A stretch of DNA of 64,000 nucleotides from Yoonia sp. (GTDB lineage Bacteria; Pseudomonadota; Alphaproteobacteria; Rhodobacterales; Rhodobacteraceae), in the NCBI RefSeq assembly GCF_017854565.1, contig NZ_JAFMHJ010000008.1:1-64000 (forward strand), given 5' to 3'. The position numbers and the translations under genes were made by a program. Positions 17,860 to 54,403 of the stretch are shown in pieces. Positions within the stretch are counted from its first letter, which is position 1. Each line of letters starts with the position of its first letter. The notes beneath the pieces are model-generated. The model did not search any database and was not told where the DNA came from. It worked only from the letters and a program-made list of their open reading frames with translations.

Positions 17860-19215
17860 ATGGACCCGGTCACCTTAGGCCTGATCGCCTTTGCCGTTCT
17901 TATCGCGCTGATCGCCGCGCGGATTCCCATCGGCTATGCGATGATACTCGTCGGCGGCGGCGGCATTGCCCTGCTCAATGGTCCCGGCATCTTGTTGAAC
18001 CAGATGAAGACCCTGGCCTATGGGCAGTTCTCGATCTACGACCTGTCCGTCGTACCGATGTTCATCTTGATGGGCGCACTTTCGTCACGCGCGGGCCTCA
18101 GTACGGCGCTTTTCCGCGCCGCGAACGCATGGCTGGGCTGGATGCGCGGCGGCACGGCGATGGCCGCGATTGCGGCCTGTGCGGGTTTCGGCGCTGTCTG
18201 CGGGTCGTCACTGGCGACCGCATCGACAATGGGCCGGGTCGCCCTGCCAGAGCTGAAACGCTACAACTATTCCGGTGCGCTGGCGACGGGAACGCTGGCC
18301 GCGGGCGGCGTGCTGGGCATCCTGATCCCGCCGTCCGTCGTGCTGATCATCTACGCCATTATCGTCGAGGCGAATATCGTCACCATGTTTGCCGCCGCCC
18401 TGCTGCCCGGCCTGCTGGCGGTGCTGCTATTCGTGCTGACAATCGCAATCTACGTGATGATCTGGCCCCAAGCAGGCCCGCGAGGCGAAGCCACCGACCG
18501 CGCCAAATTCCGCGCTGCCACGCTTGGCGTGATCCCGGTCGTGCTGATCTTTGGCGTGGTGCTGGGCGGTATCTACGCGGGGTTTTACAACCCAACGCCC
18601 GCCGCATCCATCGGCGTGGCGATGGTCTGGGCCTATGGCGCAGCCCGCCGCACGATCAAATGGCCCGAACTGATTGACAGCATTAAGGAAACCGCCGGCA
18701 CCACCGGCATGATCTACCTGATCCTGCTCGGTGCCGAACTGATGAAAATCCTGATGTCCCGGCTTAGCCTGCCACAGGCAACGGCGGAATGGATCCTTGC
18801 CTCCGGTTACGCGCCGATGACGGTCATGGTCCTACTGCTGATCGCCCTGATCCTCTTGGGCTGCCTGATGGACAGCCTGTCAATGATCCTGCTGGTGATC
18901 CCGTTTTTCTGGCCGGTGCTGATTGATCTGAACGGCGGCATCTACCAAGGCGCCGAAGGTGCCGGCTTCGGGATGAGCACCGAAGACCTGAAAATCTGGT
19001 TTGGCATCCTGGCGCTCATCGTGGTGGAACTGGGGCTGATCACGCCCCCTGTGGGGATGAACGTCTTTGTCATCTCGGCGCTGGCCAAGGACACCCCGAT
19101 GATCGAAACCTTCAAGGGCGTGATGCCGTTCTTCATGGCCGAACTTGTGCGGGTCGGCTTGCTGCTCAGCTTTCCGATGATGGCGCTTTGGCTGCCCCGG
19201 CTGCTGGCAGGATGA
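17860..19215 (+). CDS. dctM: TRAP transporter large permease subunit
   Basis: 451 aa with about twelve hydrophobic helices, beginning PVTLGLIAFAVLIALIAAR. The DctM signatures GAVCGSSLATASTMGRVALPELKRYNY (quoted in part: GSSLATASTMG) and LIPPSVVLIIYAI are present, as is the C-terminal LITPPVGMNVFVIS. This subunit carries the transport path. Its stop overlaps the start of the thiamine-diphosphate enzyme in ATGA, implying that the enzyme acts on the imported compound. Confidence 0.94.
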   Translation: MDPVTLGLIAFAVLIALIAARIPIGYAMILVGGGGIALLNGPGILLNQMKTLAYGQFSIYDLSVVPMFILMGALSSRAGLSTALFRAANAWLGWMRGGTAMAAIAACAGFGAVCGSSLATASTMGRVALPELKRYNYSGALATGTLAAGGVLGILIPPSVVLIIYAIIVEANIVTMFAAALLPGLLAVLLFVLTIAIYVMIWPQAGPRGEATDRAKFRAATLGVIPVVLIFGVVLGGIYAGFYNPTPAASIGVAMVWAYGAARRTIKWPELIDSIKETAGTTGMIYLILLGAELMKILMSRLSLPQATAEWILASGYAPMTVMVLLLIALILLGCLMDSLSMILLVIPFFWPVLIDLNGGIYQGAEGAGFGMSTEDLKIWFGILALIVVELGLITPPVGMNVFVISALAKDTPMIETFKGVMPFFMAELVRVGLLLSFPMMALWLPRLLAG

Positions 19216-20921
19216 CCGCCATGGGACCTGAAAAAGTCACGGCAGGCGGGGCGATCTTCCCCCGCCTCCAAGCGCTGGGTATCGACTATGTTTTCGTCAA
19301 CTCCGGCACGGATTTCCCCCCCATCATCGAAGGACTGGCCCAAGCCGCCCAGACCGATCATCCCCTGCCGCAGGCGGTTGTCGTCCCCCATGAACATGCC
19401 GCCATGGGGATGGCGCATGGTTACTACCTGATGTCGGGCCGTGCGCAGGCGGTTTTGCTGCACACCAACGTCGGGCTGGCCAACGGGGCCATCGGCGCAT
19501 TGAACGCGGCCTGCGACCATGTGCCGATGCTGCTGATGTCCGGGCGCACACCGGCGACGGAACAGGACCGCTTTGGCGCCCGCACCGTGCCTATCGGCTG
19601 GGGTCAGGAAATGCGTGACCAGACCGCGCTGGTCCGTGAAGCGTGCAAATGGGATTATGAACTGCGGTTCCCCGAACAGATCGCGCCCATGCTGGACCGC
19701 GGATTTGCCATCGCCAATTCGACACCCAAAGGTCCGGTCTACCTGAACCTGCCCCGCGAAGTGCTGTGCGAAGAAGTCCCCGCCGGCACCCTTGGTGCCG
19801 CACCCATGCTTGCGCCGGTCGCAATCGCCCCGGACGAAAACGCCATCACGGCTGCGGCGAACCTGCTGGCCGACGCCAAGCGCCCGCTGATCATCGCCCA
19901 GCGCGGCGCGGGCAACGCACGGACCTTTGCCGCCTTTGGTGATTTCGTCGCGCGCCACGGCATTGCGGTCAGCAGCTGGTGGGCGACGCATCTGGCGCTT
20001 GCCACCGACCATCCCTGCCACATCGGACAGGACCCCGGTGCCGCAATGGCCGATGCAGATGTCGTGATCGTTCTGGATTGTCTGGCCCCATGGTGGCCCG
20101 ATAAACACAAACTGCACCCCGACGCCAAGGTCATCCACATCGGCCCCGATCCATTATTCAGCCGGACGCCGACGCGCGGCTTTCGGTGTGATCTGGCGAT
20201 TGCGGGCGAAACGGACGTGACGCTTGGCCGCCTGATGCAGGCCACCGATCAGCACGGCACCGACCCCGGCCTTGCTGCCCGGCGACACCAAAGCGTCCGC
20301 GCACTGCACGACCGCTATTGCGCCGATATGGACCACCTGACCGCACCCCGGCCTGACGGTGCCCTGACCAAGGCGCGGGTCAGCCAACTGCTGGGATCGG
20401 CGCTTGCCGGGACGCCCTCGACAGTCTTTTCGGAACTGGGGACGATGCTTGGCCCATTGCCGCGCCAAGACCACCAATCATGGTTTCAGGAACCACATTC
20501 CGGCGGCTTGGGCTGGTCGTTTCCCGCCGCGATGGGGGCCAAACTTGCCAGCCCCGACCGCACCATCATCGCCACCATGGGCGACGGGTCGTATATGTTC
20601 GCCAACCCGACCGCCTGCCACCAAATCGCCGAGGCCCTGGGTCTCGCCATCGTGATTATCGTGCTGAACAATGCCGAATGGGGGGCCGTCCGGCAATCTG
20701 TCAAAGGGATGTATCCAAACGGCAGCGCGGCGCGGGCCAATACCATGCCACTGACCGATCTTGCCCCGTCCCCGGACTTTACCAAGACAGCGCAGGCAAG
20801 CCGCGCCTGGGCGGTTTGCGTATCCGACGAAACCGGCCTGATCACCGCATTGACCGACGCCCTTGCGCAGACCACGGCGGGGCGGGTGGCCCTGATCGAA
20901 GCCCGAATTTTGCCGGACTGA
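19212..20921 (+). CDS. Thiamine-diphosphate-dependent enzyme, acetolactate-synthase/benzoylformate-decarboxylase superfamily
   Basis: 569 aa from ATG 19212 (MTAMGPEKV), which overlaps the dctM stop. Three-domain layout: an N-terminal Pyr domain with the catalytic Glu in VVVPHEHAAMG, a central domain, and a C-terminal PP domain with the diphosphate motif GDGSYMF...NN. It should form or break C-C bonds at a 2-keto acid, but it lacks neighbours typical of branched amino-acid synthesis (no ilvH), so it is probably catabolic. Translational coupling to dctM suggests its substrate is related to the TRAP solute. A GTAC-rich repeat begins right after the stop. Confidence 0.87.
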   Translation: MTAMGPEKVTAGGAIFPRLQALGIDYVFVNSGTDFPPIIEGLAQAAQTDHPLPQAVVVPHEHAAMGMAHGYYLMSGRAQAVLLHTNVGLANGAIGALNAACDHVPMLLMSGRTPATEQDRFGARTVPIGWGQEMRDQTALVREACKWDYELRFPEQIAPMLDRGFAIANSTPKGPVYLNLPREVLCEEVPAGTLGAAPMLAPVAIAPDENAITAAANLLADAKRPLIIAQRGAGNARTFAAFGDFVARHGIAVSSWWATHLALATDHPCHIGQDPGAAMADADVVIVLDCLAPWWPDKHKLHPDAKVIHIGPDPLFSRTPTRGFRCDLAIAGETDVTLGRLMQATDQHGTDPGLAARRHQSVRALHDRYCADMDHLTAPRPDGALTKARVSQLLGSALAGTPSTVFSELGTMLGPLPRQDHQSWFQEPHSGGLGWSFPAAMGAKLASPDRTIIATMGDGSYMFANPTACHQIAEALGLAIVIIVLNNAEWGAVRQSVKGMYPNGSAARANTMPLTDLAPSPDFTKTAQASRAWAVCVSDETGLITALTDALAQTTAGRVALIEARILPD

Positions 20922-20922
20922 T

Positions 20923-20965
20923 GTGTACGTACGCTGGATGTACAGGGTCTGTACGCGGTCTTGCA
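20923..20965. repeat. GTAC-phased intergenic element, copy 1
   Basis: Begins 1 bp after the preceding stop codon and carries GTAC at offsets 4, 11 and 11 bp apart (GTGTACGTACGC, then ATGTACAGGGTCTGTACGCG). The reverse complement of copy 2 (32779-32820) matches it at about 34 of 43 positions. Lies between the convergent thiamine-diphosphate enzyme and ugd. Function unknown. Confidence 0.7.
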
Positions 20966-20993: not shown

Positions 20994-22316
20994 TCAGCTG
21001 GCCGACCGCTGCGCCCGCCCGATGGACGCATAGGCCTTGAACCCGGCTTTCAGCACGTCGTCAGGCGAATAAATATTGCGCAAGTCAGCCATCAGCGGCG
21101 TTCGCATACTGCCTGCCAAACGCGTCAGATCAAGCGCACGGAATTCATTCCACGCCGTCAGCAGAACCAACAAATCCGCCCCCTCCGCCGCGTCATATGC
21201 ATTTGCAACCCACGTCACACCCGGCAATAGCGCCTCGCCCTCGGCTTTGCCATGCGGGTCCGTTACCCGCACAGTCGCGCCGCCGCCAAGCAATGCAGGC
21301 ACAATCGTCAGCGCCGGGGATTCGCGCATGTCGTCGGTATTGGGTTTGAATGTGGCACCCAGAACCGCCACCGTCTTGCCGGCAAAGCTGTCGTCGCAAA
21401 GATCACGCAGCTTTTCAATCATCCGCCGTTTGATTTGCTCATTCACCTCGATCACGGTTTCCACGATCCGCATGGGCACGCCATGCTCTTGCCCGATACG
21501 GGCCAAAGCCTTGGTATCTTTGGGAAAACAGGACCCGCCAAAACCCGGGCCTGCGTGCAGAAACTTGTTCCCGATCCGACCGTCATAGCCAATACCCTTT
21601 GCCACCTCTTTGACATCCGCGCCGGTCCGTTCGCACAGGGAGGCGATTTCGTTGATAAAGGTGACCTTGGTCGCCAGAAATGCGTTGGCGGCGTATTTGA
21701 TCATTTCTGCGCTTTCGAGATCGGTCCTGACGATGGGAAAATCACGCAAGAAAAGCGGGCGGTAGATGGCTGCCATCACAGCCGCCGCGCGGTCGGTTTG
21801 AACACCGACAATAATGCGGTCCGGGCGCATGAAATCATCAATGGCAGCACCTTCGCGCAGGAATTCCGGGTTGGATGCCACGTCAAAGTCCAAATTTGGA
21901 TTGGCCGCTTTGATCACCTCGGCCACCTTGCGATTGGTGCCGACGGGAACGGTTGATTTCGTAACGACGACAACATAGTCAGTGGCCGCCCGCGCGATTT
22001 CTTGCGCCGCAGCAAGCACATAAGACACGTCCGCGTGGCCATCACCACGGCGGGTCGGCGTCCCAACCGCTATAAAAACAGCCTCGGCCCCAGCGATGGC
22101 AGTCGGCAGATCACGGGTAAAGGTCAGACGCCCCGCGGCCGTGTTACGGGCCAGAAGCTCATCAAGGCCCGGCTCAAAAATCGGGATATCGCCGCGTTCG
22201 AGCATATCAATCTTGCGCTGATCCTTGTCCACGCAAACGATATCGTGGCCAAAATCAGCAAAACATACCCCCGACACAAGCCCGACATATCCAGTTCCGA
22301 TAACCGCGATTTTCAT
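20994..22316 (-). CDS. ugd: UDP-glucose 6-dehydrogenase
   Basis: 440 aa. N-terminal Rossmann motif IGTGYVGLVSG, catalytic cysteine loop GPGFGGSCFPKD, and the C-terminal UDP-binding domain with GATFKPNTDDMRESP. Oxidises UDP-glucose twice to UDP-glucuronate for exopolysaccharide or envelope glycans. It lies downstream of ppsR on the same strand, with a 116-bp gap, so it probably has its own promoter. Nothing in the sequence connects it to photosynthesis. It could also act on a related UDP-sugar. Confidence 0.95.
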   Translation of the reverse strand: MKIAVIGTGYVGLVSGVCFADFGHDIVCVDKDQRKIDMLERGDIPIFEPGLDELLARNTAAGRLTFTRDLPTAIAGAEAVFIAVGTPTRRGDGHADVSYVLAAAQEIARAATDYVVVVTKSTVPVGTNRKVAEVIKAANPNLDFDVASNPEFLREGAAIDDFMRPDRIIVGVQTDRAAAVMAAIYRPLFLRDFPIVRTDLESAEMIKYAANAFLATKVTFINEIASLCERTGADVKEVAKGIGYDGRIGNKFLHAGPGFGGSCFPKDTKALARIGQEHGVPMRIVETVIEVNEQIKRRMIEKLRDLCDDSFAGKTVAVLGATFKPNTDDMRESPALTIVPALLGGGATVRVTDPHGKAEGEALLPGVTWVANAYDAAEGADLLVLLTAWNEFRALDLTRLAGSMRTPLMADLRNIYSPDDVLKAGFKAYASIGRAQRSAS

Positions 22317-24969: not shown

Positions 24970-32778
<7,809 letters not shown>

Positions 32779-32820
32779 TGCACAACGCGTACAGACCCCG
32801 TACGGACCGCGTACGTACAC
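32779..32820. repeat. GTAC-phased intergenic element, copy 2
   Basis: Starts at the base after the bchL stop. GCGTACAGACCCCGTACGGACC followed by GCGTACGTACAC (GTAC spacing 11, 11, 4) is the reverse-orientation partner of 20923-20965. It fills most of the 67-bp bchL-bchM gap, so it is transcribed within the superoperon. Confidence 0.7.
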
Positions 32821-32845
32821 CTACCCTGCGTGGGGGCCGTTTGGG

Positions 32846-33538
32846 ATGACCAACTATGCCGCCACACGTGACCGGGTCGAACACTACTTTGACCGTTCCG
32901 CCACCAAGGTCTGGGAGCGGCTGACGTCAGACGCGCCGGTGTCGGGTATCCGTGCCACGGTGCGTGCGGGTCGCGACCGGATGCGGGCGCTGATGCTGGC
33001 CCAACTGCCCGATGATCTGCGCGGCGCGCGGATTTTGGATGCGGGTTGCGGCACCGGGGCGATGGCGGTGGAACTGGCCCGGCGCGGGGCAGATGTTGTC
33101 GCGGTCGATATCTCGCCTGCTTTGGTCGATATCGCACAAAAGCGGATGCCGACCGGCATGCCCGGTGCGATTGAATGGATCGCGGGTGACATGCTCGAGG
33201 CGACCAGTGGTCGGTTCGACCACGCGCTGGCGATGGATTCGTTGATCTATTACAGCGCGCCGGATATTGCCGCGCTGCTGGGCCGTGCCGTCATGCGGGT
33301 CGATGGCAAATTCATCTTTACCCTGCCGCCACGGACACCCGCGCTGATGGCGATGTGGCGTATTGGCAAGCTGTTTCCACGGGCCGACCGCAGCCCCGTC
33401 ATGATCCCGCAATCCACCGCCGGTGTCGCCAATGCCCTGCGGACCGCAGGTGTCAAAGGCAACCTGCGCGAGGTCGATCGGATCAAGTCAGGTTTCTATT
33501 TTTCAAGCGCACTGGTGTTTGAGGGAGCGTCCAGATGA
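32846..33538 (+). CDS. bchM: Magnesium-protoporphyrin IX methyltransferase
   Basis: 230 aa from ATG 32846 (MTNYAATRDRVEHYF), with a GGGGG site; the earlier ORF start overlaps bchL and is rejected. SAM-binding motif ILDAGCGTGAMAVELARRG and DISPALVDIA. Methylates the C13 propionate of Mg-protoporphyrin, the step between Mg-chelatase and the AcsF cyclase. Its stop overlaps the lhaA start in ATGA. Confidence 0.96.
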   Translation: MTNYAATRDRVEHYFDRSATKVWERLTSDAPVSGIRATVRAGRDRMRALMLAQLPDDLRGARILDAGCGTGAMAVELARRGADVVAVDISPALVDIAQKRMPTGMPGAIEWIAGDMLEATSGRFDHALAMDSLIYYSAPDIAALLGRAVMRVDGKFIFTLPPRTPALMAMWRIGKLFPRADRSPVMIPQSTAGVANALRTAGVKGNLREVDRIKSGFYFSSALVFEGASR

Positions 33539-54178: not shown

Positions 54179-54271
54179 GAGTATCCCCTTTGCATGCAGG
54201 GTCTAGCCCCCGCGACAATCAGGCTCAAGAGGTTTCCCTTGTCACTGCGCGCAATCCACCCTAGCTAAGAT

Positions 54272-54354
54272 GTACCTCGGGGGGCCTTTATTGGCTGAGA
54301 TGCGCAAGCGGACCCGTTGAACCTGAACCGGTTAAGACCGGCGGAGGGAAGGTA
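54272..54354 (+). promoter_or_regulatory. TPP riboswitch (THI element)
   Basis: Contains CTCGGGGGGCC, GGCTGAGATG, ACCCGTTGAACCTGAACCGG and GGCGGAGGGAAGG in order, the canonical thi-box core. It lies 49 bp upstream of thiB. Downstream, TATCCCCCCAA (54367-54377) can pair with TTTGGAGGATA (54391-54401), which holds the thiB ribosome site, so translation control by sequestering is likely. Confidence 0.95.
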
Positions 54355-54403
54355 TGGCCATCGCGCTATCCCCCCAATCCGCCCGTCGCATTTGGAGGAT
54401 AAG

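Follow-up and report, generated by a model that had tools for sequence, protein, structure and literature searches.

Two phased GTAC arrays and the family around them

The window, the whole stretch of 64,000 nucleotides from a Yoonia sp. contig analysed here, carries two copies of a tandem array in which GTAC tetramers recur at 11-bp steps (20925-20954 in copy 1 and 32789-32818 in copy 2). Copy 1 (20923..20965, minus strand) lies downstream of a gene for a thiamine-diphosphate-dependent enzyme (TPP_enzyme_N/M/C; 19212..20921, plus strand), whose stop codon, ending at 20921, lies 1 base away from that core, and faces a convergent UDP-glucose/GDP-mannose dehydrogenase gene (20994..22316, minus strand). 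Read from 20965 to 20923 on the minus strand, it is TGCAAGACCGC GTACAGACCCT GTACATCCAGC GTACGTACAC (model match E 2.0e-8), and consists of a degenerate pseudo-unit 1 (20955..20965; RTRYARANNGC is kept among copies), unit 2 (GTACAGACCCT, 20944..20954), unit 3 (GTACATCCAGC, 20933..20943) and a terminal GTACGTAC (20925..20932), the family form of which is GTAYRTAC. Copy 2 (32778..32820, plus strand; ATGCACAACGC GTACAGACCCC GTACGGACCGC GTACGTACAC; model match E 2.8e-9) is built likewise, with unit 2 (GTACAGACCCC) at 32789..32799, unit 3 (GTACGGACCGC) at 32800..32810 and the terminal GTACGTAC at 32811..32818, all on the plus strand. As the first-pass annotation had reported, copy 2 is placed within an operon; it lies between bchL (NifH/frxC family; 31882..32778, plus strand) and bchM (Mg-protoporphyrin IX methyltransferase; 32846..33538, plus strand).

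The 11-bp phasing claimed earlier is borne out, as GTAC-N7-GTAC occurs four times in the window, only within these two copies, where shuffled sequences lead one to expect 0.16. The same is true of the opposite orientation of the two copies, of their common end in GTACGTAC and of their start directly after a stop context (gacTGATG precedes both), while their likeness holds at a slightly lower figure, about 32 rather than about 34 of 43 aligned positions. GTAC itself is not generally depleted, with an observed to expected ratio of about 1. The window also shows a depletion of CTAG that is frequent in bacteria (14 observed versus 30 expected), and, at 54268-54366, a match to the TPP riboswitch (RF00059) that exceeds the gathering score.

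Both copies are members of a dispersed repeat family larger than the first-pass annotation had reported. In the 3.5-Mb genome to which the window belongs (G000, a draft of 108 contigs), the three-fold phased GTAC pattern has 17 matches and a reversed control pattern has none, and a model trained on the sequences of 24 copies finds about 54 matches at E<0.01, with the 11-bp spacing kept among the copies of the genome. The first-pass annotation had named two refuting outcomes, a genome with just these two copies and a spacing that varies among copies, and neither was found. Two relatives, G022 and G266, carry about 75 and 83 copies, respectively; very degenerate copies would be missed in all these searches, because the models were derived from the family itself. 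The family consensus is RTRYAKANNSY-GTACAKANNSY-GTACAKANNSY-GTAYRTACR, that is, the unit GTACAKANNSY twice, preceded by a degenerate RTRYAKANNSY and followed by GTAYRTACR, so that four 11-bp units fall on one helical face. Core letters are 88-100% conserved in G022 and spacer letters are nearly random.

Distribution among genomes and placement along the chromosome

Nearly all members of the family were found in Yoonia, with some in a few neighbouring genera, and exact matches outside the G000 genome are nearly all in contigs of Yoonia or uncultured Rhodobacteraceae. A second model, applied across the genus with stricter filters, gave matches in 31 of 57 genomes (about 86-89 in G022 and G266, 52 in G000, 45 in G018 and 1-23 in the others) and none in the remaining 26, while among the 198 other genomes of the wider family, 4 had 1-11 matches. 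Copy number is thus uneven within the genus, with roughly 50-90 copies in the richest genomes, and the zero counts, which weigh against the binding-site proposal made below, mean that the arrays are dispensable or replaced where they are missing. An origin from phages was rejected on the grounds that the exact pattern has 0 matches among IMG/VR viral contigs. No description of the element was found in the open-licence literature.

The placement of the arrays was studied mainly in G022, which is assembled as one 3.90-Mb contig. Among 75 classified copies, 65 are intergenic although only ~14% of the chromosome is non-coding (coding fraction 0.86; P=4e-45), and part of the 10 copies called intragenic lie in small intergenic reading frames or in N-terminal regions; the gene calls come from a simple purpose-made caller, and single assignments may be wrong. 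Convergent gaps are enriched and divergent gaps depleted (convergent 19 versus 10.0 expected by gap length, same-direction 36 versus 35.8, divergent 10 versus 19.3; P=0.002). Within same-direction gaps of G022 and G000 together, the stop codon is nearer than the next start in 44 of 59 cases (P=2e-4), and the GTAYRTAC end faces the preceding gene in 40 of 59 (P=0.009). The median array-to-stop distance is shorter in G022 (18 bp) than in G000 (61 bp), where ~20 of the copies sit in a longer composite and raise the value. The adjacency to stop codons seen in the two window copies is a real trend across the family and not a rule.

Along the chromosome, copies are spaced more evenly than chance, and the richest genomes have an average interval of about 50 kb. 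Gaps below 10 kb number 4 versus 13 by chance in G022 (P=0.0006) and 2 versus 9 on the largest contig of G266 (contig 1; P=0.0014), two tests that are not independent as the genomes share sites, and this evenness could partly result from the shared ancestry of sites or from detection limits. Close pairs do exist: a single intergenic region of G000 (G000:C13:14498-14649, L056) holds two arrays separated by ~100 bp, and a similar pair is found in G266 (C2:550202 and 550308). No replichore polarity was detected in G022 (19+/10- on one arm and 22+/25- on the other; P=0.16, origin and terminus having been guessed from the GC skew of sampled loci), and no clustering of copies towards origin or terminus was seen. 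The genes beside the arrays are functionally mixed and of housekeeping type, and no transposase family is among the 25 commonest neighbour families. Autoregulation by an adjacent regulator was also considered and rejected, as the genes flanking copies in divergent gaps are non-regulators; a copper-type MerR gene has an array nearby in both G000 and G022, at a different place in each.

Conservation at orthologous sites and gain at bchL-bchM

We compared the sites between genomes, judging orthology by neighbouring genes up to 1.5-3 kb away. Among the 51 copies of G000 that were compared, 33 match a G022 copy in locus, side and orientation, where chance would give about 1.4; 22 of these shared sites are backed by two or more orthologous neighbours and the remainder by one. 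Against the same G022 sites, 16 of 20 copies in G266 and 9 of 17 in G265 also match. At the sites shared by G000 and G022, the core columns are 88.8% identical (88.2% in random pairs of copies) and the spacers 29.8% (29.2% in random pairs), and judging by these identities the sequence between the cores is fully replaced while the cores persisted. Persistence of place, orientation and core with randomised spacers points to selected protein-binding sites rather than decaying repeats. One array, immediately downstream of the ATG of a gene for a MauG-like protein, is kept in four species (L073, L194, L309 and L328) and there appears to be part of the coding region. The species also have their own, slightly different dialects, GTACATAC in copies of G265 and GTACAGAC in copies of G000, each common to the copies within a genome, and such joint change of the sites of one genome suggests a common trans-acting factor. 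The site orthologous to copy 1 is uninformative, because gene order around it differs in all relatives.

The bchL-bchM junction, gathered from 30 genus genomes by way of bchM, gives a view of how an array is acquired. In nearly all of these junctions the stop codon of bchL either shares bases with the start of bchM or directly adjoins it (TGATG or TAATG), and the 65-bp insert that carries copy 2 (32781..32845, plus strand), placed between the old and the new bchM ATG, is absent from the other genus genomes examined; by this comparison copy 2 is a recent gain. A 23-codon reading frame (32778..32849, plus strand) runs through the insert from the old bchM ATG, which overlaps the bchL TGA, to a TGA that overlaps the present bchM ATG. 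Translational coupling would be preserved, because this frame overlaps both bchL (TGATG) and bchM (ATGA), as if coupling had been selected. At this junction, four further genomes (G012, G015, G262 and G267) carry another insert, with a different 11-bp array (GTCGGCAAAGC GTCGGACAAAC GTCGGACTTGC GTATGGCAAGG), and in a poorly resolved BchM tree they are not grouped with G000.

This second, sparser 11-bp family has a GTCGGAC core (CGTCGGACTTGCGTATGGCAA) and is found in other Yoonia genomes, with some copies standing between bchL and bchM and others in intergenic composites (L289, L299, L303 and L304 in G012, L295 in G018, and L291, L293 and L294), with four exact copies of the GTCGG array in G012 and one in G018. 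Outside bchL-bchM these copies lie in a ~150-bp frame of the form GTTAA ... array ... GGTTAAC-GC-GGCGTGCGG ... GTTAA. The same frame surrounds about 20 of the GTAC arrays of G000 (L206, L208, L210, L215, L069-L072, L074, L076, L085 and others), in the order GTTAA, an A/T-rich stretch, the array, GGTTAACGCGGCGTGCGG and another GTTAA. A consensus fold of 20 of these ~150-bp composites gave no RNA structure, and they match no Rfam family. Together, the inserts at bchL-bchM and the common frame show that arrays can be gained and that the core can vary inside one frame.

Candidate binding sites and competing explanations

The arrays resemble several known systems in part. REP-type repeats have the same placement at gene ends without a known binding-site function everywhere, and this likeness counts against reading the arrays as binding sites. 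REPs occur as tens to hundreds of short intergenic copies close to 3' ends, mostly in convergent and same-direction gaps, with occasional intragenic copies and with copy numbers that vary between related species, and they are defined by a stem-loop plus a GTAG or CGTC tag (PMC3733652). The arrays are likewise extragenic, near 3' ends, rich in convergent gaps and variable in number by species, as are REPs and BIMEs, but they show no supported palindromic stem-loop of 5-13 bp and consist instead of head-to-tail 11-bp direct repeats, their ends are GTAYRTACR and RTRYARA with no GTAG or CGTC tag, and they have stayed at orthologous sites, their cores conserved. For the RAYT transposase associated with REPs, the 25 commonest neighbour families offered no candidate.

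In architecture, one parallel is the operator of CarH/LitR, a B12 photoreceptor of the MerR family. This operator has three to four tandem 11-bp repeats nnnnTnnACAn, of which frequently three are good and one is degenerate, and a tetramer binds them head to tail along a single face of the DNA (PMC9304148). The arrays similarly have four 11-bp direct repeats with a degenerate first unit. ACA is conserved in them, but TnnACA is found in only part of the units, the T being present in about 46-57% (G022) or 19-27% (G000) of units 2 and 3. However, CarH operators overlap promoters and are few per genome, whereas the arrays number 50-90 and lie behind genes. Four MerR_1 proteins were found in the G000 genome at E<1e-5, with open frames of 260, 178, 150 and 131 aa, and the 260-aa frame, the longest and the one that was read, is a short MerR beside fabH with no visible B12 domain. 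CarH was rejected on gene-end placement and on the probable lack of a CarH-like protein in the genome, although its architecture fits. The alphaproteobacterial LexA box (GTTC-N7-GTTC) shares with the arrays 4-bp cores in an 11-bp direct repeat (PMC3323433), but differs in having two units versus four and in its placement at SOS promoters rather than gene ends, and it was rejected as the array core is GTAC and not GTTC.

Chromosome-organising systems such as matS/MatP, SBS/SlmA, parS/ParB and KOPS/FtsK use tens of conserved intergenic protein sites across the chromosome. The arrays are also tens of conserved intergenic sites spread chromosome-wide, while they differ in the architecture of the site and in showing no ori-ter or replichore bias. 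A KOPS-like polar site was rejected, as array orientation in G022 does not follow the direction of replication.

Given a phase and layout like those of CarH in the wrong placement, and a placement like that of REPs without stem-loop and tag, we propose that the arrays are probably a chromosome-wide set of sites for a putative DNA-binding protein that oligomerises head to tail. A genus-specific protein, oligomerising as CarH does, would contact the GTAC(AKA) of each unit, with the four tandem units presented to it on one face of the helix, and selection would keep the sites where they are, for the most part immediately downstream of genes. Its role would be in chromosome organisation or in setting boundaries where genes end, as opposed to promoter control. 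Protein binding, oligomeric state and an organising or boundary role are what we infer from these patterns. The suggestion in the first-pass annotation of protein recognition on one DNA face has gained good indirect support from the comparison of sites, and its view that the arrays are not simple leftover sequence stands.

Among the competing explanations, we regard it as unlikely that the arrays are REP- or MITE-like mobile repeats that transpose into harmless gene ends and persist there passively, their conserved letters reflecting the needs of a mobilising enzyme. Such a repeat would account for the lineage-specific insert at bchL-bchM, the near-identical GTCGGAC copies (four in G012, and others at the same junction in other species), the strong differences in copy number among species and a placement as described for REPs (PMC3733652). 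However, old orthologous copies keep their core amid randomised spacers, which passive decay cannot yield, 33 sites have the same orientation, and neither a stem-loop nor an enrichment of transposases among the 25 neighbour families was found. Still less probable is a large regulon under an ordinary transcription factor, whether CarH, LexA or another: both of these are known to use operators made of 11-bp direct repeats (PMC9304148; PMC3323433), and array units contain ACA, often as TnnACA, but the arrays avoid divergent gaps, where promoters lie, and favour stop codons, their neighbours are mixed housekeeping genes, and none of the four MerR-type proteins of the genome is seen to be CarH-like.

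A 3'-UTR RNA element or a transcription terminator at mRNA ends seems very improbable, even though the arrays lie near stop codons, often in convergent gaps, and one weak terminator-like call overlaps copy 1. Folding of both window copies and a consensus fold of 52 arrays gave nothing significant beyond the self-complementarity of GTAC (5-bp), no covarying pairs were detected, and the dependence between columns concerns adjacent letters (27-28, 16-17 and 32-33, and more weakly 28-32) that are not pairing partners; the structured RNA offered by the first-pass annotation as an alternative was therefore not upheld. Neither copy 1 nor copy 2 matches Rfam, terminator-like hairpins are not commoner beside arrays (10/65 versus 48/191 in G022, and 11/55 versus 15/71 in G000), and the occurrence of arrays in both orientations relative to the gene, with some copies inside reading frames, also speaks against this explanation.

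Extending the binding-site proposal, the arrays may tentatively be seen as a lineage-specific chromosome-organising or domain-boundary system, which we consider possible but doubtful, with ~50-90 evenly spread 44-bp arrays behind genes, a new protein that binds them as a head-to-tail oligomer, a recognition sequence that drifts between species and is followed by every site, as the dialects suggest, and a second, GTCGGAC type of array in the shared ~150-bp frame in other species. Short repeats behind bacterial genes are commonly regarded as selfish debris. The retention of place, orientation and core in dozens of copies despite randomised spacers argues that these arrays must do something, and they offer clean bait for the candidate binding protein. 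In Yoonia, a marine genus, they would allow one to ask whether a bacterial genus can invent a chromosome-wide architectural code of its own, and how such a code drifts from species to species.
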